Below, piece by piece: positions 213-12,510 of a stretch of 64,000 bases of DNA. The DNA lies in assembly GCA_937922655.1 (NCBI GenBank), contig CALAJH010000012.1, positions 124,001 to 188,000 of the forward strand. The letters are read 5' to 3'. Each line of letters starts with the position of its first letter. Within the stretch, counting starts at the first letter, position 1. The DNA comes from an uncultured Bacteroidia bacterium (GTDB taxonomy: Bacteria; Bacteroidota; Bacteroidia; J057; CALAJH01). The translations under genes and the position numbers were made by a program. Under the pieces are notes generated by a model. That model did no database searches. It was not told where the DNA came from and saw only the letters and a list, made by a program, of their open reading frames with translations.

Positions 213-2090
213 ATGTGTGGAATCGTCGGATGGGTAGGGCCGGGAAAATTTGATTCGGAAAAATTCGAAGCCGGGCTAAAAACGTTGTCGCGGCGCGGAC
301 CGGATTTGCAGGCTATGAAAAAAATGGATGGTGCGATTTTGGGTCATACCCGTCTCGCTATTTTGGACCTTTCTCCCGCCGGCAACCAACCTATGACCGT
401 TGGCGAATTGACCTTGGTTTATAACGGCGAAATATTCAACTATCCACAAATAGCGGAAGAAATCCGACGTATTCGCCCTGAAATACAATTTCAATCCACG
501 GGTGACGCGGAAGTTCTGCTTCGTGCATACGAGACGTGGGGCGCAAAATGCGTGGAAAAATTCAACGGTTTTTTTGCGTTTGCGATTTACAACCAAACCA
601 CCCAAGAACTTTTTGCCGCTCGGGACCCACACGGCATTAAACCCTTTTGGTACGTCCACGACGAACGGGGTTTTTTCTTTGCATCCGAGGCAAAAGCTTT
701 GTTTGCCGCAGGTTATCGATTCGACCTCAATCCCGTTTCCGTTTATCATTTTTTTCAGCTCAACTACGTACCCCCCGACACTTCGATTTGGAATGGCGTT
801 TATAAACTATTGCCGGGTTATAGTTTGACGCTTGAAAAAAACACATTGAAACTTGCGCCCTACCCCCCTACCCTACCTTATCCCGAACTTCCCCATCCCC
901 ATGCAACAACATATCCACAAATACAAGAAAACGTAAAAGCACTGGTGGAAAACGCCGTAAAAATACGGTTGATTTCCGACGTCCCTTTGGGGGTGTTTTT
1001 GTCCGGAGGCATTGACTCGTCGATTGTAGGCGCGATGGCCGCCAAGCACCAACCGGAATTGTTGACGTTTTCCATCGGCTTCGACGACCCGCTTTTCGAC
1101 GAAACCTATTACGCCGAGCTTGTCGCAAAACACATCGGTTCGCGACATACAACGTTCAAATTAAGCTTTGAGGACTTGGCGCAGAGCGTAAACGGATTGT
1201 TGGATTATTTGGACGAACCTTTTGCCGACTCTTCTGCGATTAACACCTATATTTTGTCGGAAAGGGTTTCCAAACATGTAAAGGTTGCCTTGTCCGGCGA
1301 CGGCGCCGACGAACTTTTCGGTGGATATATGAAACACGTCGGTGAGGCGAATGTCCGTGAAAAATCGATGCTTAATCTATTTATTCGAGGACTTTATCCA
1401 TTGATAAAGCATATTCCAAGCCATAGAAACAGCGTAATGGCACGTAAAATATGGCAAATTAAGAAATATGCAGAGGGAATGTTGTTGTCGCCTCAAGAAC
1501 GATATTGGCGTTGGGCAAGCGTACAAGACGACGACTTTTTACGTTCAATGATTAAAACAATTCCTCATAAGGAATTGCTTAATAAAGCGCGTTCGGTATA
1601 CTTGGAACGAATTGACAAATACAACGATATGAACGGCGTATTATCGGCGGATATGTATTTGGTTTTGACGGGTGATATGCTGACCAAAGTGGACATGACT
1701 TCCATGGCGCATTCTTTGGAGGTTCGCCCTCCTTTTTTGGATATACATCTTACGGATTACGTCGAAAAATTACCGGCCGAAATGAAAATAAAAGGTAGCG
1801 ACAGAAAACGGGTATTAAGGGATGCATTTCGGAAATATCTGCCGGAAGAATTATACACAAGACCTAAACAAGGATTTGAAGTGCCGTTGCGAAAATTGTT
1901 TATTGGACCTTTGAAAAACTATATTGAAAAAGAAATCGTCAATCGTGAAAAAATCGAATCTTCGGGATTGTTTCGTTATCCACCGATAGAAAGATTATGG
2001 AACAGCGTTAAGTCGGGCGGAAACACAAAAGAAGATTGGACGTTGTGGGCGCTTATCGTTTTTATACATTGTACCAACAAGTACGATTAA
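213..2090 (+). CDS. asnB: Asparagine synthase (glutamine-hydrolyzing)
   Basis: N-terminal MCGIVGWVG (Cys2 nucleophile), RRGPD, LSGGIDSS PP-loop, SGDGADELFGGY. Confidence 0.95.
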   Translation: MCGIVGWVGPGKFDSEKFEAGLKTLSRRGPDLQAMKKMDGAILGHTRLAILDLSPAGNQPMTVGELTLVYNGEIFNYPQIAEEIRRIRPEIQFQSTGDAEVLLRAYETWGAKCVEKFNGFFAFAIYNQTTQELFAARDPHGIKPFWYVHDERGFFFASEAKALFAAGYRFDLNPVSVYHFFQLNYVPPDTSIWNGVYKLLPGYSLTLEKNTLKLAPYPPTLPYPELPHPHATTYPQIQENVKALVENAVKIRLISDVPLGVFLSGGIDSSIVGAMAAKHQPELLTFSIGFDDPLFDETYYAELVAKHIGSRHTTFKLSFEDLAQSVNGLLDYLDEPFADSSAINTYILSERVSKHVKVALSGDGADELFGGYMKHVGEANVREKSMLNLFIRGLYPLIKHIPSHRNSVMARKIWQIKKYAEGMLLSPQERYWRWASVQDDDFLRSMIKTIPHKELLNKARSVYLERIDKYNDMNGVLSADMYLVLTGDMLTKVDMTSMAHSLEVRPPFLDIHLTDYVEKLPAEMKIKGSDRKRVLRDAFRKYLPEELYTRPKQGFEVPLRKLFIGPLKNYIEKEIVNREKIESSGLFRYPPIERLWNSVKSGGNTKEDWTLWALIVFIHCTNKYD

Positions 2091-5000
2091 CTTGGACTTT
2101 TTGCCTCGGCTTTTACCCGCTTTCTAGCGATAAGTTCCGGGCCAAACATTTTAATTACTTTGACCACTTCGTCAATCTTAAAAGGTTTTCCAATAAAATA
2201 AGACATTCCGGCTTTCATGCATTCCGCTTTGTTTTCTTCAAGAACCGCGGCTGTTAATGCGATAATAATAGGTCTTTGTGTTTGGGGAAACCGGGAAACA
2301 ATTATTTCCGTAGCTTCGATTCCATCCATTTCCGGCATCTGTATATCCATAAAGATTAGGTCGTAAGGCACTTGGGAAACAGCAGCAATCGCTTCTTTAC
2401 CGTTGGCAACAACATCGGGTTTATAACCGCATTTTTCCAACAGCCGTACCATAATTCTTTGGTTTACCGGACTGTCTTCGGCAATCAAAATATACAACGG
2501 AAACAACTTGGACAGCTCGCCGGAAAGTCCTCCTTTTGTTGCCGATAAACTATTGCTTATTGATAAATCTCCTTTCAAAACGTTGGCCAGTAAACGAAAG
2601 AACTGCTTTTGTCGAACGGGTTTGGGTACAAATATTTCCATATCGCCGACTTGTTTTCCTTGAATACTGCCCGACGTCAAAAAGATAATTGGAAAATTAT
2701 TTTCTCTAAACTTCGCTCTAAAAATACTCGACAAAGCGATGGAATCTTCGACGTTTAACCTTGTACCAATGACCGCTAAATCAAACTTTTCAACATACCG
2801 AATATCACTCAACGAGCTAAACTTAAAGACTTTTACGCCGTATTTTTCAATACATTGAGATAATATTGAGCGGAGCCTGTCGTTTTTTTCGACAAGAATT
2901 ATAGACTTGGACGAAGGAAAAACGGGTTCGGGATGCCTTGATTTGTTTTGAGTTGTAAAAAAAGTTAAAGTAAAAAAGAATTCCGCACCCTCACGGGAGA
3001 CAACCCCAATTTGTCCTCCCATTAGCTCGACCAAAGACTTACTAATGGCCAACCCCAAACCGGTTCCTTCATGTTTTCTTCGATGCCCCGTTTCCAATTG
3101 TACGAAGGGAACAAAAAGTTTATGTACTTCGGATTCGCGAATTCCGGGCCCCGTGTCTTTTACTATAAATTTCAAATTTAATTGGTTTTCGTTGGATCCC
3201 AGTAAGGAAACATGAACAAACACCTCGCCTTTTGAAGTGAATTTTATTGCATTACTTACCAAATTCGCCAATATTTGACGAAGCTTGTTGCCGTCTCCCG
3301 CAACCCATTCGGGTACATCGTCTTCTATAAAATAAATGAGTTCCAATTGCTTTTGGTGGGCTTTTGCCGAGAATAACTCGAATACGCTTTCAATACTATA
3401 CGACAATTCAAAAGGTTCGGATTCAACTTTCAAACTTCCGGAATCGGCTTTGGAAAATTCCAAAATATGATTGATAATCGTAAGCAGATTATCGCCCGAA
3501 ACCCTAATCGTTTCTACTAATTCTCGTTGTTCCGACGTTAATTCGGTCTCTAAAAGTAAACCCGTCATTCCCAACACTCCGTTCATCGGGGTTCGGATTT
3601 CGTGGCTCACCATGGCAAGAAAGTCGGTTTTTGCGCGAGACATAGTCTCGGCTTCTATTTTGGCTGCTTCCAATTTCTGTTCGGCCAACTTTCTACTGTT
3701 TATATCATAAATTACCCCCGTAATTCCAATAAAGTCCCCGTCGGCGCTTCGATTGGCATTCAAGTTAAATTCCACCCAAACCGAAGGTTCTTTATCCGAA
3801 TGACGTATAATTTTGGTGTCAAATCGCACGCTATCCTTATAGCCCGTTCTCAGTTCGTTATATAAAGTAATGGCCAAGTCTTTGTTTTCCAAAATAAAGT
3901 CAAAAATTGATTTTCCCACGTACAAATGGTCTGCAATGCCTGTAATTTCACTCCATGCAGGATTAAGGAAGACAATATTCCCTTCAATATCCGTTTGAAA
4001 TATAATTTCCCGAACGCTGTTAACAACGGACTTATAATGCTCTTTACCTTGACGCAACTGTTCTTCTACAAACTTTAAATCGGTGACGTCCCTCCCAACA
4101 AAAAGATATTCATAAATTTTATTTGAATCGTCGAACATTGCTCTTGCCGTCCATTCAAGCCATTTATAGTCGTCGTTGGAAAACAATACTCTGTGTGTAA
4201 ACTTGACCATCGGCTCTTCCGCGGAAACCGTGGATAGAACAGAATTTATACCCACCGTGTCGCTTTCGGGTATTTCGGGTACAAATTCATAACCAATCAA
4301 GGATTCACGGGTAACTTTGAAAAATCTTATAAAAGCTTCATTAACAAAGAGTACATGAAATGTTGAGTCCGTCCTACAAATAAGTTCGGTCTGGTCTTCG
4401 ACAATTGCACGGTATTGCGCCTCCCGTTCGCGTAACGCCAATTCGACGTTCTTTGCAAAAGTTATATTTCTTAGTATCAATGCGGCGTCTCCATTCCCAA
4501 GACTGAATATTCGAGCCTCAAAGTAATCGCCATTGAAAAAAATCTCCGTGATTTGAGGTGTATTTTCTGCAACGGCTCTATGAAAGAAAACCATAATTTT
4601 GGCGGATATCTCCGGATTGAAAATTGAATCGAGATATCTTCCTTGATTTTTGGCATTCGAATAACTTGCTTTGCAGTATCCATCGGCGGATATCCTAAAG
4701 TACTCGTCGGGTAAAACTTCAAACAACGCCTCTAATTCTTTATTTTTAAAGTGCAATTCATTGGCTACATTATCGCTTAAAATTCGGGAAATTTTTTCAT
4801 AGGTTATATCGGTTGCAACACCCAACATTAGACGAGAACCGTCGGACAAATACAGTGGCAATTTCGTAGACTGAAACCAAAATTCTTTACCATAGTCGTT
4901 AATGTAATGAACTTCCGCTTTTATAGGTTTATCGGAAGTGAAAACGGATTCTTCAAAGTCGGTGAATGCAGGAAGGATAGGGGTAAGACTATTCGGCGCA

Positions 5001-6655
5001 AGTATTTCATTGTTATGTGTTGGTGGATTGCCAATGATTTGATACAATCTAACTTCATTAATAAGAACAAGGCTACCCTCTCGGTCTCTAACATATATCA
5101 GACTCGGATTTGAATTGATAACGTGCATTAAAAATTCGCTTTGCCGAATTACTTTTTGTTCGGCGACGATACGTTCCGTTATGTCAAGTGCAAATTGTAA
5201 CGTATAGTTGGAACTACCTGCTTTGATAAACGTATTTCCTAGAATAAAATATCGGTTGCATCCATCCAGTATTATTGAAATTTCATCCGATTTGGATTTA
5301 AAGATAGTGTCGATAGCATCATTGTCTTTGATATACAAATTGGTAAAAATTACGTTCGAATACTCGTCCAACAATCTTACGGCTACCGGTAAAGAATCCA
5401 AAACACTCTTAAACAATTCCTTTTGACCCAATAGTTCGTTTTCTTTATTTATTTCGTTTGTTTTGTCTTCAAGAATGCCCAATATATAAGTTTCATTTTC
5501 GGAAATATGAAGAGGAACTTTTCGAACTTGTAGGATTTTTCCGGTAGAATGTCTCCAAAAGTAATTTAAAGTTTCATATTGTCTTAAAGCAAGCGTACGC
5601 TTGTCATAAAAATCAAATAAAGAAATTTCATCGGACGAATAACCCAGTTCTATATCGTGCTTGTTGATAAGGTCCGCGGGTGTATTTTTTCCTTTTAGTC
5701 GAGCAAACAGTTCATTGCAACCCATGTATTTACCTTTGCCGTCTTTCCAAAAAATTCCAAGCGGCAGATTTTCAATAACCCTTTGCAACAATACATTAAC
5801 CTCGTTCAACCGCCGTCTTGTAGAAATTTCTTCGGAAATATCACGCATAACTCCGACAATTCCGGTAGTTTCTCCGTGCCAGTTTTTAATAATCGACAAC
5901 GTGGCAAACACCACAATTTTTCGACCTTCCTTGGTACGTAATGTGGTTTCGCCCGTCCACACACCGTTTTGTTGCAAAGTGGAACTCACGGACTCGTGCG
6001 TGGCATCTTGATATTGGTCGAAAAGTAATTCGTTAAATGTTTTTCCCAATGCTTCATGCTCGGTATATCCGAACATTCTTTCCGCAGACAGATTCCAACC
6101 CGTGATTATATCTTCGGAATTGGTAGAGACTACGGCATTGCCAAGTTGTTGAAATAAAAACGACTGAAACTCAATTTTTGTTTGCGCTTCAAGTCTGTCG
6201 GAGATGTCTCTTACCGAAGTAACGTAATATATTAACTCTTGATGTTTAACCGATTTCGTTCGAACCTCTACGGGAATATATTTTTCAGACTTCGATTTAA
6301 ATCTAATGCAAAGCGGATGTTCGGAGATGTTAGGAAAGCCGACAAATCTTTCCAATGCATCGGCTAAGTCGTCAGGATGTAAATAAGCGAGTAATTTGGT
6401 TTGCAATACCTCGTATTTTTGATAACCCGACAAATCAAGCAATGCTTGATTGACATCCACAACTACCCCGTCTTTGTGCAAAACCAAACCTTCGAATGCA
6501 GTTTCTATATAGCCCAATAATGAGGCGTTTTCGTGGAATATGTAGTTTGAATTTAATTTTAGCCAGTGTTCGACTAGGGAGACAAAGGCGGATTCGTCCT
6601 TTGCACAAGACCTTAGTAATTCTAAGGTGTTCTTAGGTATTCGACTGAAATCCAT
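2087..6655 (-). CDS. Multi-PAS hybrid sensor histidine kinase (about 8 PAS, HisKA, HATPase_c, degenerate REC, REC)
   Basis: Repeated PAS-like blocks, MVSHEIRTPMNGVLGM H-box, GTGLGLAISKSLVELMGG, terminal REC YDLIFMDIQMPEMDG. Confidence 0.93.
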   Translation of the reverse strand: MDFSRIPKNTLELLRSCAKDESAFVSLVEHWLKLNSNYIFHENASLLGYIETAFEGLVLHKDGVVVDVNQALLDLSGYQKYEVLQTKLLAYLHPDDLADALERFVGFPNISEHPLCIRFKSKSEKYIPVEVRTKSVKHQELIYYVTSVRDISDRLEAQTKIEFQSFLFQQLGNAVVSTNSEDIITGWNLSAERMFGYTEHEALGKTFNELLFDQYQDATHESVSSTLQQNGVWTGETTLRTKEGRKIVVFATLSIIKNWHGETTGIVGVMRDISEEISTRRRLNEVNVLLQRVIENLPLGIFWKDGKGKYMGCNELFARLKGKNTPADLINKHDIELGYSSDEISLFDFYDKRTLALRQYETLNYFWRHSTGKILQVRKVPLHISENETYILGILEDKTNEINKENELLGQKELFKSVLDSLPVAVRLLDEYSNVIFTNLYIKDNDAIDTIFKSKSDEISIILDGCNRYFILGNTFIKAGSSNYTLQFALDITERIVAEQKVIRQSEFLMHVINSNPSLIYVRDREGSLVLINEVRLYQIIGNPPTHNNEILAPNSLTPILPAFTDFEESVFTSDKPIKAEVHYINDYGKEFWFQSTKLPLYLSDGSRLMLGVATDITYEKISRILSDNVANELHFKNKELEALFEVLPDEYFRISADGYCKASYSNAKNQGRYLDSIFNPEISAKIMVFFHRAVAENTPQITEIFFNGDYFEARIFSLGNGDAALILRNITFAKNVELALREREAQYRAIVEDQTELICRTDSTFHVLFVNEAFIRFFKVTRESLIGYEFVPEIPESDTVGINSVLSTVSAEEPMVKFTHRVLFSNDDYKWLEWTARAMFDDSNKIYEYLFVGRDVTDLKFVEEQLRQGKEHYKSVVNSVREIIFQTDIEGNIVFLNPAWSEITGIADHLYVGKSIFDFILENKDLAITLYNELRTGYKDSVRFDTKIIRHSDKEPSVWVEFNLNANRSADGDFIGITGVIYDINSRKLAEQKLEAAKIEAETMSRAKTDFLAMVSHEIRTPMNGVLGMTGLLLETELTSEQRELVETIRVSGDNLLTIINHILEFSKADSGSLKVESEPFELSYSIESVFELFSAKAHQKQLELIYFIEDDVPEWVAGDGNKLRQILANLVSNAIKFTSKGEVFVHVSLLGSNENQLNLKFIVKDTGPGIRESEVHKLFVPFVQLETGHRRKHEGTGLGLAISKSLVELMGGQIGVVSREGAEFFFTLTFFTTQNKSRHPEPVFPSSKSIILVEKNDRLRSILSQCIEKYGVKVFKFSSLSDIRYVEKFDLAVIGTRLNVEDSIALSSIFRAKFRENNFPIIFLTSGSIQGKQVGDMEIFVPKPVRQKQFFRLLANVLKGDLSISNSLSATKGGLSGELSKLFPLYILIAEDSPVNQRIMVRLLEKCGYKPDVVANGKEAIAAVSQVPYDLIFMDIQMPEMDGIEATEIIVSRFPQTQRPIIIALTAAVLEENKAECMKAGMSYFIGKPFKIDEVVKVIKMFGPELIARKRVKAEAKSPS

Positions 6656-7464
6656 TAAGGCAAAGACGATTTGAACTCGGAGTACCTAGTTTCAAACGCT
6701 TGACCCGTTCCACAAGCTTCGGCTTTTTTGTTGATGTTTTCGACTCGCTTGTCGGGTGCGGGATGAGTACTTAACCACGCCGGGGTCTTCCCGCTTTGAC
6801 CGCTATCAACCAGTTTTTGAAAAAATCCTGCCGTACCATTGGGTTCGTAATCCGTTTTACACAAGTATTTTACGCTGTACTCGTCGGCTTGTGTTTCGTC
6901 TTTTCTACTGTAACTAAGCAAAGCCAAATTGGCGGCAACATCTTTCAACGTGCTCGAATTCTTGCCAAGCGCCATACTTAAAAGAAAGTCCAAACCATAC
7001 GCGGTTGTCAATCTATCCGTTGAATGTCTTAGGTCGGCATGAGCGATTTCATGCCCCATTACACCGGCGAGTTCGCTTTCTTTGTCAAGGAATTTTATCA
7101 AACCCGTGTAGACGTAAATGTACCCGCCGGGAGCGCAAAATGCATTCAACGTCGCGTCGTCGCGAATTATTTTTACCTGCCATTCGAAACGGTCCCGATA
7201 ATTTATTTCCCCCGTGTTAAGCAGGGCATTGGTAATTCTGAGTATGTGAGAATACGCGACGGGATAAGCGGTTTCATCCAATAAAGGATAAGTAGCGGGG
7301 TCGCTCTTTATCTCTTGGTCGAGCTGTTTACCTAATTTAATATCGTCTTCGACGGAAAATACGTTTACTCCGCCGCCTTTACTGCAAGAGGACGTCCAAC
7401 TTGCAACAAGGAGAATTATGGCGGCAACGACTATTCCAAGGTGAATATTTCTTTTCATCTTCAT
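6655..7464 (-). CDS. M48-family metalloprotease, probable lipoprotein
   Basis: HExxH motif GVMGHEIAHADLRHS; signal peptide with Cys (SWTSSCSKGG). Confidence 0.9.
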   Translation of the reverse strand: MKMKRNIHLGIVVAAIILLVASWTSSCSKGGGVNVFSVEDDIKLGKQLDQEIKSDPATYPLLDETAYPVAYSHILRITNALLNTGEINYRDRFEWQVKIIRDDATLNAFCAPGGYIYVYTGLIKFLDKESELAGVMGHEIAHADLRHSTDRLTTAYGLDFLLSMALGKNSSTLKDVAANLALLSYSRKDETQADEYSVKYLCKTDYEPNGTAGFFQKLVDSGQSGKTPAWLSTHPAPDKRVENINKKAEACGTGQAFETRYSEFKSSLP

Positions 7465-9107: not shown

Positions 9108-10085
9108 TTATGATATGCTTTCCGAGATTAAAAATGAATTTCTATCGGACGAGCTTCTTGCAATCAATTCCCCTAGAAAACCTGCAAGAAACATTTGCAA
9201 CCCGGCAACCAACGCCACAAGGGAAAGATAAAACAGAGGTTGTTCGACAACGGGACGGATGCTGTTTGGTTGCACCCCTATATGTAACTTATAAAGTTTT
9301 TCTGCAATTAAGTAAACGGTGGTTAAAAAACCCGATGCAAAACATAATACACCCAAAGATCCAAAAAAGTGCATCGGCTTTCTTCCAAATCTAAGAATAA
9401 AAGACAAAGAAAGCAAGTCCAGAAATCCGTTGATAAATCTTTCCAATCCGAACTTTGAAACTCCGTATTTTCTCGCTCTGTGCTCTACTACTTTTTCGCC
9501 AATTTTACTAAATCCGGAAGCTTTAGCTAAAAACGGGATGTAGCGATGCATTTCTCCATAGACCTCGATAGACTTAACCACTTCATTACGATACGCTTTT
9601 AAGCCGCAATTGAAATCGTTAAGCTTGATTCCCGAAACTATGCGCGTAACGAAGTTGAAGATTACGCTTGGAAGAGTTTTGCTTATAGGGTCGTAACGCT
9701 TTTTTTTCCATCCACTGACAACGTCGTATTTATCTTCGGTAATCATTTTGAAGAGTGCGGGTATTTCGTCGGGACTGTCTTGTAAATCGGCGTCCATCGT
9801 GATGACCACGCTTCCCGAGGCATGACGAAATCCCACGTTAAGCGCCGCGCTTTTCCCATAATTTCTTTGAAACTTGTAAGCGACAATCGAGGGAAATTTC
9901 AATTTTAGTTCCTTAATTACCTCCCATGAATTGTCTTTGCTTCCATCGTCCACAAGTATAACTTCATAGTCTAATTTATGATGGGTGCACACGCGGTCTA
10001 TCCATTCTACAAGTTCCGGAAGGGATTCGGCCTCATTGTACAACGGTATTACCACCGATAATTCATTATTCGACTTGTTCGACAT
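9108..10085 (-). CDS. Glycosyltransferase family 2 (GtrB/DPM1-like, two C-terminal TM helices)
   Basis: LSVVIPLYNEAESLPELV, VDDGSKDNSW, DADLQDSPDEIP; hydrophobic C terminus. Confidence 0.92.
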   Translation of the reverse strand: MSNKSNNELSVVIPLYNEAESLPELVEWIDRVCTHHKLDYEVILVDDGSKDNSWEVIKELKLKFPSIVAYKFQRNYGKSAALNVGFRHASGSVVITMDADLQDSPDEIPALFKMITEDKYDVVSGWKKKRYDPISKTLPSVIFNFVTRIVSGIKLNDFNCGLKAYRNEVVKSIEVYGEMHRYIPFLAKASGFSKIGEKVVEHRARKYGVSKFGLERFINGFLDLLSLSFILRFGRKPMHFFGSLGVLCFASGFLTTVYLIAEKLYKLHIGVQPNSIRPVVEQPLFYLSLVALVAGLQMFLAGFLGELIARSSSDRNSFLISESIS

Positions 10086-11325
10086 AATTTAAATCTTTGC
10101 CGAAGGTTTCTTGTAAAAAATAAAGAGATGTAAATGCAATAGGAATCAGAATCAAAAGCACGGCAAAGGCTCCATATAAATCTGCGTTTGGCATCCCTCC
10201 CCATACGGAAAATCTAAAAAATTGAAAAAGCAACGTTGATGGAACCAACGCACCGCGTACGATATTTGGAATCGTTGTAGCGGCGGTTGCTCGGATATTT
10301 GTGCCAAACTGTTCTGCCGCAATGGTTACGAAAACCGCCCAGTAACCAACGCCAAATCCCATGCCAAAAATTAACCCGTAAAAATGCAAATCGGAAGTTT
10401 TAGGGTTTAGCGTAAGATAATGAGCCGTAAGGACCGATGTCAAAAGGAGAAAGAAAAACACCGCTTTTTTTCGACTTTTCAGCAACTGGCTTAACAAACC
10501 GGAAGTCAAATCGCCTGCGGAAAGCCCCATATAAGCCAACATTATTGTAAATCCCGCATCCACGTCAAACGCCAGCCCTAACGACTTGGCAAATTCCGGC
10601 GATTGAAACACAAGAATACCAATAACAAACCATAAAGGAACGCCGATAAGAACACAGTTAATATATTTTAGAAGTGTATTCTTGTTTTTTAAAAAGATGG
10701 CAAGGTTTCCTTTCGCAACTTTTTGGGCGTCTAGGCTTGTGAACATTCCCGATTCATGAACGCCAAACCTAAGCGCCAAAAGTCCTAACCCCATTAATCC
10801 GCCAACGATGTACGCAACCCTCCAATTTTCAATTCCCAGATTTAGATTTAAGTTGGCTACACGGTTGGCGGCTACGGCCCCAAGCAAACCGAAAGAAGCG
10901 ATAAGAGTCGTGCCGATTCCACGCTTTTCCTTACCCATTAATTCGGAAACCAATGTAACACCCGCTCCAAGTTCTCCGGCCAATCCTATGCCCGCAATCA
11001 GTCGAAGTATTGCGTACGTTTCTATGGAATTTACGAAACCATTGGCAAGATTCGCAATCGAATACAAGAATATGGACCCGAACAGTACCGATAATCTTCC
11101 ACGTTTGTCCCCAAGTATTCCCCAAAGAAAGCCTCCAATCAAAAGGCCCGTCATCTGGGTATTCATTAAAAATTCACCCTCAAGACGAACGCTCTCGGCG
11201 TCAACGATTCCCAAACTATTAAGACTTGGTATTCTAACTACGCCGAAAAGAATTAAATCGTATATGTCTACGAAATAACCTAAGGCGGAAACCACTATGG
11301 CGATGTAAACTCCTCGCAAACCCAT
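10066..11325 (-). CDS. MFS transporter
   Basis: About 12 hydrophobic segments; GILGDKRGRLSVLFGS motif. Confidence 0.88.
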   Translation of the reverse strand: MGLRGVYIAIVVSALGYFVDIYDLILFGVVRIPSLNSLGIVDAESVRLEGEFLMNTQMTGLLIGGFLWGILGDKRGRLSVLFGSIFLYSIANLANGFVNSIETYAILRLIAGIGLAGELGAGVTLVSELMGKEKRGIGTTLIASFGLLGAVAANRVANLNLNLGIENWRVAYIVGGLMGLGLLALRFGVHESGMFTSLDAQKVAKGNLAIFLKNKNTLLKYINCVLIGVPLWFVIGILVFQSPEFAKSLGLAFDVDAGFTIMLAYMGLSAGDLTSGLLSQLLKSRKKAVFFFLLLTSVLTAHYLTLNPKTSDLHFYGLIFGMGFGVGYWAVFVTIAAEQFGTNIRATAATTIPNIVRGALVPSTLLFQFFRFSVWGGMPNADLYGAFAVLLILIPIAFTSLYFLQETFGKDLNYVEQVE

Positions 11326-11337
11326 TGTATCGCAAAT

Positions 11338-12372
11338 CTACAAAGTTTCCAGTACTTCTACAACTTTTCTATTTTCAACCGAGTTGCCAACGGTTAAACG
11401 TAGGCAATTCTCGCAATAGGGTAACGACGAAACATCCATTACTTTAATGCCCGCTGCAATTAATTTTTCATAAGCCGCACGTGCGTCGTTCAGTCTTACC
11501 ATTATAAAATTAGTTTCCGAAGGATAAATTTTTAAAATACTTGAACAAGTTTGTAACTCGTACACCCACTTTTCTCTAGCCTTATGAGATTTCGCCACCC
11601 AATCTTTTAATTCGTGGGCGAATCGTAGCGTTTGGATTGCCAATGATTGAGTAATACTGTTTATGTTGTATTTATTTTTAATAGCATTGACAATGTTAAT
11701 TATAGTTTTTGGCGAAATCATAGCCGACAACTGTAAGCCCGCCATTCCCCAAGCATAGTCGAGAGTTCTTATGCATATTATATTATTATATTTATGATAA
11801 TTGGTATAGTTTGGTTTTTTAAAGTCTAAATATGATTCGTTTATAGCTATTATTCCATTAAAGCTTTGTGTGATTTCGTCCAACACATCGTCGGGTATCG
11901 GCATGCCCGTAGGATCGTTCGGGGTCGCCATGTACAACAATTTCACTTCGGGAGTAAGAAAGCCAACGATTTTTTCCGAATTAAAAGGCTCGTCCGGATT
12001 CCAAGTGGCATATTTTAGCAAAGCGCCGTGAATCAAGGCCCGCCTCGAAAAGTTACACGACGATGGAGCTACTATTACAACCGCGTCTTGACAAGGCTCA
12101 ACAAATAAATTCAAAATCCAGTCGTAAACTTGGTCTAAACCGTGTCCTATGGCTATATTGTTCGCGTTTACCGACAATACGTTTGCCCAAGCTTCTCGAA
12201 GATTCGTTTGCAGTGAATCGGGAAAATGATTGTAAAAAGCGCCGGAAATGGATCCGTTGGAATTTTCGTTAGCGTCGAGCATAACATCGTACATTCGTCG
12301 CTCTTCGATACCCAAAATTCTGAACTGTTCGCGCTTTGAATCCCGCAATAATTCCTCTATTCCGACTTTCAT
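11338..12372 (-). CDS. HisC-like fold-type I aminotransferase homologue, probably non-catalytic
   Basis: LDANENSNG, TPNDPTG, NESYLDF, TLDYAWGMAGLQL, CLRLTVG align to HisC motifs, but the PLP lysine is Tyr; internal ATG at 12372 preferred over the ORF-track start 12432. Confidence 0.85.
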   Translation of the reverse strand: MKVGIEELLRDSKREQFRILGIEERRMYDVMLDANENSNGSISGAFYNHFPDSLQTNLREAWANVLSVNANNIAIGHGLDQVYDWILNLFVEPCQDAVVIVAPSSCNFSRRALIHGALLKYATWNPDEPFNSEKIVGFLTPEVKLLYMATPNDPTGMPIPDDVLDEITQSFNGIIAINESYLDFKKPNYTNYHKYNNIICIRTLDYAWGMAGLQLSAMISPKTIINIVNAIKNKYNINSITQSLAIQTLRFAHELKDWVAKSHKAREKWVYELQTCSSILKIYPSETNFIMVRLNDARAAYEKLIAAGIKVMDVSSLPYCENCLRLTVGNSVENRKVVEVLETL

Positions 12373-12411
12373 ACTCAAAATTGAATAATTTTTAGGTAAC
12401 GCAAGAATATT

Positions 12412-12510
12412 GGTATTTAAAATCAATACCAAAAATATATTTATAGAAAATTAGTATTAAAAAATAATAGTATTATTTTTTGTCAATATTTTGTATTGGA
12501 ATTCAATACT
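12412..12510. promoter_or_regulatory. Candidate operator array: repeated/inverted GTATT half-sites
   Basis: GGTATT-N7-AATACC (12412-12430), AGTATT at 12453 and 12469, GTATTG-N5-CAATAC (12493-12509). Confidence 0.4.

Follow-up and report, generated by a model that had tools for sequence, protein, structure and literature searches.

The question raised by the reading frame at positions 11338..12372 (minus strand) of the window, by which we mean the whole stretch of 64,000 nucleotides that was analysed, is whether a gene resembling that for histidinol-phosphate aminotransferase (HisC), in which residues that hold the cofactor PLP have been replaced, still encodes an enzyme, is a relic of one, or has been kept for another purpose. 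Translation of this region revealed an uninterrupted frame of 344 aa plus stop, with an ATG start at 12372 and a TAG stop codon, whose product is referred to here as P0001. A preliminary description of this DNA had reported an intact ORF of 345 aa; the frame is indeed intact, but the length given includes the stop codon. The best NCBIfam family for P0001 is TIGR01141 (hisC), and as this match (E 2.4e-59) extends over the full length of the protein, it is not due to chance or to an alignment artefact. The score on this profile is 201 bits, which is under the curated cut-off of 276.55 bits. Additionally, P0001 has a Pfam match to Aminotran_1_2 (E 8e-25), and HisC proteins (7szp, 1fg3, 8bj1) head its sequence matches in the PDB. 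Judged by its sequence and its predicted fold, P0001 belongs to the HisC lineage of Bacteroidota.

The translation contains the motifs PNDPTG, INESYLDF, RTLDYAWGMAGLQLS and NCLRLTVGN, and the changes described earlier (NDPTG, NESY, D-Y in place of S-K and Gln in place of Arg) read identically in the translation and in the DNA. Residue equivalences were obtained from an alignment of P0001 to the E. coli HisC (1fg3), counted along the printed alignment. In place of the Schiff-base lysine (K214) P0001 has Tyr206 (codon TAT, 11755..11757), which is preceded by Asp205 (GAC), opposite S213. The Asn that binds the O3' of PLP (N157) is replaced by Asp153 (11914..11916), the Asp that contacts the pyridine nitrogen (D184) by Asn178 (11839..11841) and the Arg that binds the PLP phosphate (R222) by Gln214 (11731..11733), all of these codons being on the minus strand. 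Further, the ring-stacking Tyr (Y110; Tyr127 in the M. tuberculosis, or Mtb, enzyme) is S105, the Tyr contributed by the partner subunit (Y55; Mtb Tyr67*) is F50, one of the Arg residues for the substrate phosphate (R322; Mtb Arg337) is M312, and S79 (= Leu) is an additional change. The other substrate-phosphate Arg (R335) is kept as R325, in agreement with the earlier claim that the Arg of the C-terminal LRLTVG is retained; Y187 is kept as Y181, and Tyr235, on the interface side, is also retained. A lysine has been gained at position 234, opposite Mtb Pro260*, but it is no conserved replacement for the catalytic lysine.

The losses that had been claimed for the motif sites are borne out, and the change is larger than was stated. 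Eight of the ten PLP-contact positions are changed, S105 and F50 among them, where the contacts (E. coli Y55, A84, D85, Y110, N157, D184, Y187, S213, K214 and R222) are those that we take to constitute the site. Elsewhere, 68 columns show conservation of at least 93% across 54 HisCs, and 23 of these are changed; the Fisher p-value for this difference (0.008 one-sided, 0.012 two-sided) is indicative only, as the contact list was compiled partly after the sequence of P0001 had been seen. In the Mtb HisC, Lys232 forms the internal aldimine, Arg240 is salt-bridged to the phosphate of PLP, Tyr127 stacks on the ring, the substrate phosphate is held by Arg337, Arg346 and Asn176, and Tyr67*, Pro260* and Tyr261* are contributed by the other protomer (PMC4703992). 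Nine positions are conserved across the subfamily I-beta aminotransferases (PMC4703992), and five of these (mArAT Asn157, Asp184, Lys217, Arg225 and Gly227) are changed in P0001, where they are D153, N178, Y206, Q214 and S216, respectively. From its sequence, P0001 has probably lost both the ability to hold PLP as an internal aldimine and its transaminase activity.

The host genome (3.58 Mb in 84 contigs) is estimated to be 100% complete, and no second HisC, no HisB/IGPD, no HisD and no HisG was detected in it, while the matches to His_biosynth (HisA/HisF) were short, weak and partial only. The observation that no other his gene lies nearby thus extends, for a second HisC and for HisB, HisD and HisG, to the genome as a whole; this loss of the entire histidine pathway was missed by the preliminary description. 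Since in 60 relatives the HisC matches of genuine strength usually lie within 1–2 kb of an IGPD match on the same contig, P0001 is an orphan. Four genomes from the same order (G003, G004, G006 and G007, of which G006 is only 56% complete) likewise contained neither HisB nor a HisC-like match to P0001, and several of the families in this order seem to have lost histidine biosynthesis, so that such loss appears to be common in the order. With the whole pathway gone, the catalytic constraint upon this gene could be lost as well.

In contrast to P0001, all of the roughly 120 HisC and HisC-like relatives checked whose sequences extend across the site have kept the Schiff-base lysine, and the SK motif was always present where a match covers it (some 80 loci in the species collection, together with the relatives with whole genomes). 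An alignment-based scan recovered 80 HisC loci, all with the lysine, of which the best was 37% identical to P0001. No orthologue of P0001 was found in a collection of contigs from 84,980 species, in the class (395 genomes, with a threshold of E <= 1e-66) or in viral contigs, and none of the 60 relatives contained a close one, the best match having 35% identity. In a TIGR01141 survey of 346 genomes of the class, the best match was under the cut-off in 17; in most cases these HisC-like proteins are members of other subfamilies, or else they are truncated, and the lysine is present in every one. In a maximum-likelihood tree, the end branch of P0001 has a length of 4.23 changes per column (median 0.49), and owing to this long branch it could not be placed inside any HisC clade. 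The role proposed earlier for this protein was a conserved non-catalytic one; as no genome searched contained an orthologue with the same losses, the word conserved finds no support, and the ligand sensor, scaffold or regulator suggested there is putative. Separately, a HisC gene in another genome of the class (G066:C47:6152-7147) has a full profile score and one in-frame TGA, which may represent a pseudogene, a sequencing error or recoding.

The reading that we consider probable is that P0001 is a lineage-specific, HisC-derived pseudoenzyme which has been kept under selection for its fold. Its main rival is late decay, i.e. that P0001 is a decaying relic of the lost histidine operon, released from selection too recently for a stop or a frameshift to have become fixed. 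This suggestion draws upon the loss of the pathway, the absence of HisB and of any HisC from several families of the same order, and the fact that no orthologues of P0001 were found. The identity of P0001 to the HisC consensus is 37.7%, in comparison to a typical value of 63% among HisCs, an excess of about 79 amino-acid differences. When neutral divergence to this extent was simulated, a mean of 6.6 nonsense events was observed, to which indels would add, and none of the 150 runs was free of stops. Hence, a neutral history would predict about seven stops plus indels in a frame that is in fact open, and random decay over the whole of this divergence, which the preliminary description had also doubted, is unlikely.

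In a second simulation, real HisC genes were taken through 400 neutral runs, in which stops were forbidden and which were halted at the same identity; these runs, like the first set, begin at extant HisCs and not at the true ancestor. The hydrophobic core is retained in P0001 at 86 of 95 columns (0.905), compared to 0.80 +/- 0.05 in the neutral runs, only four of which reached the value for P0001, and its mean BLOSUM score is 1.97 versus 1.64 +/- 0.10, a value reached by none of the runs. The substitutions are thus more conservative than expected under neutrality, which argues against the relic. For the HisC-conserved columns, P0001 retains 47 of 78 (0.60) versus 0.54 +/- 0.07, with 78 of the 400 runs reaching this value, so that conservation peculiar to HisC is down to what neutral drift would leave, as a relic would lead one to expect. 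The codon score of P0001 (0.028) is closer to those of neighbouring genes (0.05–0.15) than to that for random synonymous codons (-0.10), which speaks for a gene that has been kept, but it is the lowest among the genes compared, which speaks for decay. On the other side, a neutral loss of 80% of the PLP contacts would imply change at most other positions too, and P0001 is a lone gene, flanked by genes other than his genes and preceded by a repeat array of its own (see below). A constraint of the fold type is therefore visible in P0001 and a HisC-type functional constraint is not; it is unlikely that the ORF is neutral debris. We regard the relic as an unlikely explanation. The pattern seen is that expected of a pseudoenzyme, although it does not prove selection today.

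The AlphaFold2 model of P0001 has a mean pLDDT of 89.3 and a pTM of 0.88, but the input was an alignment of P0001 with 54 HisCs, so that the true HisCs may impose the fold. In a Foldseek comparison with the PDB, the best matches of this model were all HisC structures, with TM-scores of about 0.8. The core-retention test described above is independent of the AlphaFold2 alignment. It is thus probable, on the basis of the model, that the HisC fold is retained in P0001, and together with the alignment to 1fg3 the model supports the earlier view that PLP chemistry has been lost in an intact ORF with this fold.

A different possibility is that P0001 is a non-catalytic subunit whose partner is an active fold-type I enzyme of the same cell, to whose active site it contributes interface residues, in the manner of SPTLC1 and SPTLC2. 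In fold-type I enzymes the active site is located at the dimer interface and draws residues from each chain (PMC4703992), and SPTLC1, which is without the catalytic lysine, has been modelled as a heterodimer with SPTLC2 (PMC11016064). The host genome has 13 other Aminotran_1_2 places from which a partner might come, and the interface-side Tyr235 is kept. However, there is no adjacent or closely similar partner gene and no second HisC in the genome, and of the residues that would be offered across the interface the equivalent of Tyr55 is Phe and that of Pro260* is Lys234. This arrangement appears improbable to us. Even less probable is that P0001 is an active enzyme of altered cofactor chemistry, using PLP or PMP non-covalently or employing another residue such as Lys234 or Asp205. 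As Lys234 corresponds to the pocket-lining proline from the adjacent protomer (Mtb Pro260*), a lysine is formally present in the active site, and Arg325 and Tyr181 are kept. Against this stands the joint loss of the Asp that protonates the pyridine ring, the Asn for O3', the Arg for the phosphate and the stacking Tyr, for which reason P0001 should bind PLP or PMP poorly, and Lys234 is not conserved in anything, no orthologue having been found. Lastly, that a sequencing or assembly error makes a normal HisC look defective is for practical purposes refuted, since, although the genome is a draft of 84 contigs, the changes consist of many independent in-frame codon changes along the whole length with no frameshift, on a 192-kb contig, and the best identity to any HisC is only 35–37%.

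If P0001 is a pseudoenzyme kept for its fold, the loss of histidine biosynthesis in this lineage would have left hisC to survive as a fold without its cofactor, and the protein, probably dimeric, would have been kept after the loss of the pathway as a stable protein of HisC fold. The pocket would have been remodelled, with Arg325, Tyr181 and Tyr235 kept, the lysine changed to Tyr206, the second phosphate Arg to Met312, and Lys234 gained, and it may bind a small metabolite bearing a phosphate or a carboxylate, or a protein partner. Arg325 is the family anchor of the substrate phosphate or carboxylate. A ligand-binding or regulatory role is the most likely of the roles that were considered, and is, taken alone, put forward tentatively; no partner, ligand or regulator of P0001 was identified in this analysis. 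The more detailed proposal, that after loss of the pathway the aminotransferase was re-purposed in one lineage as a sensor of a non-PLP ligand, or as a regulator of a transporter unit, with an operator array of its own, is doubtful.

On the pseudoenzyme reading in general, P0001 would be part of a unit co-expressed with the downstream genes for an MFS transporter and a GT2 glycosyltransferase, which adjoin P0001 as had been noted. The MFS gene (10066..11325, minus strand) starts 12 bp after the stop codon of P0001, a gap short enough that the two are probably co-transcribed, and the GT2 gene (9108..10085, minus strand) overlaps the MFS gene and is probably on the same transcript. Of 60 relatives from the class, 38 have the MFS protein, with 45–61% identity (up to 63%, in partial matches), and in score it falls far short of all the named MFS subfamilies. 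The neighbourhoods of this gene in six sampled relatives had nothing informative in common with the window except the MFS gene itself; the ancestral his locus could thus not be recovered by synteny, and as the neighbours differ, the adjacency of P0001 and the MFS gene carries little functional information. Elsewhere in the window, positions 2087-6655 (minus strand) encode, from a reading of the sequence, a multi-PAS hybrid sensor kinase of 1522 aa, directly upstream of which lies an M48-like peptidase gene (6655-7464), with overlapping stop and start.

Upstream, between P0001 and the divergent gatC, are three repeats spaced 39–41 bp apart. The nearest, a candidate operator at 12410..12432 (the repeat itself being 12410-12429), is a GTATT-N7-AATAC dyad that is extended to TTGGTATT-N7-AATACCAA, and lies about 38 bp upstream of the start of P0001. 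A second candidate operator is the dyad GTATTGGAATTCAATAC with its flank, again GTATT-N7-AATAC, at 12490..12509, and the third repeat, at 12451..12470, is a degenerate form of the motif (TTAGTATTAAAAAATAATAG). Exact GTATT-N7-AATAC occurs at four places in the host genome, two inside ORFs and two intergenic, both of the latter (12413-12429 and the dyad at 12490..12509) being upstream of P0001. The repeats look like a dedicated operator array, but the region is AT-rich and the array could serve gatC instead. No transcription factor gene was identified beside the repeats (12410-12509). Two candidates examined for this region were not retained: a structured RNA upstream of P0001, for which there was no Rfam match, and, as the binder of the repeats, a regulator of the MocR type, in which an aminotransferase fold is joined to an HTH. 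Of the Aminotran_1_2 places outside the window, none of the nine with the best scores showed such a regulator, although at two of them the longest ORF was that of a neighbouring gene.

In relation to known proteins, P0001 shares with HisC (TIGR01141; PDB 7szp, 1fg3/1gew, 8bj1) full-length homology and the predicted fold, and it keeps the LDANEN motif, the PN-PTG frame, the equivalents of Tyr187 and Arg335 and the C-terminal CENCLRLTVGN. Unlike HisC, it is without the catalytic Lys, O3' Asn, pyridine Asp, phosphate Arg and stacking Tyr, it falls under the family cut-off, and its genome has neither a his operon nor the histidine pathway. By the features tested P0001 does not qualify as a HisC, and these features accord with a fold-type I pseudoenzyme. 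One such pseudoenzyme, SPTLC1 (LCB1), is kept by selection; like P0001 it is a fold-type I homologue without the catalytic lysine, but it has a known active partner, whereas P0001 has none known. SPTLC1 is the non-catalytic subunit of serine palmitoyltransferase (PMC11016064). Among bacterial proteins, Rv3778c of M. tuberculosis is cysteine-desulfurase-like, lacks the PLP lysine, and was judged likely non-catalytic and possibly functional (PMC12910592). It resembles P0001 as a bacterial PLP-fold protein without the covalent PLP lysine; however, it belongs to a different fold-type I subfamily, the parent of P0001 being HisC, and in P0001 the loss of cofactor residues goes much further and there is no parent pathway left. 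Rv2231c, a CobC/HisC-like protein of M. tuberculosis, has been listed among bona fide PLP-dependent enzymes, and a non-catalytic or moonlighting role has also been suggested for it (PMC11065945, PMC12910592). It is thus, like P0001, HisC-related with a suggested non-catalytic role, but only in P0001 is the PLP site lost.

Pseudoenzymes of the PLP fold are already known, but a full-text literature search found no description of one derived from HisC, the single match being unrelated. In this lineage the order of events is unusually readable: the pathway has been lost, the catalytic residues are gone, and the fold has apparently been kept. If P0001 is functional, it would provide a clean test case of the path from metabolic enzyme to non-catalytic protein after the loss of a pathway; if it is not, it would usefully illustrate the extent of divergence that a relic can undergo with its frame still open.
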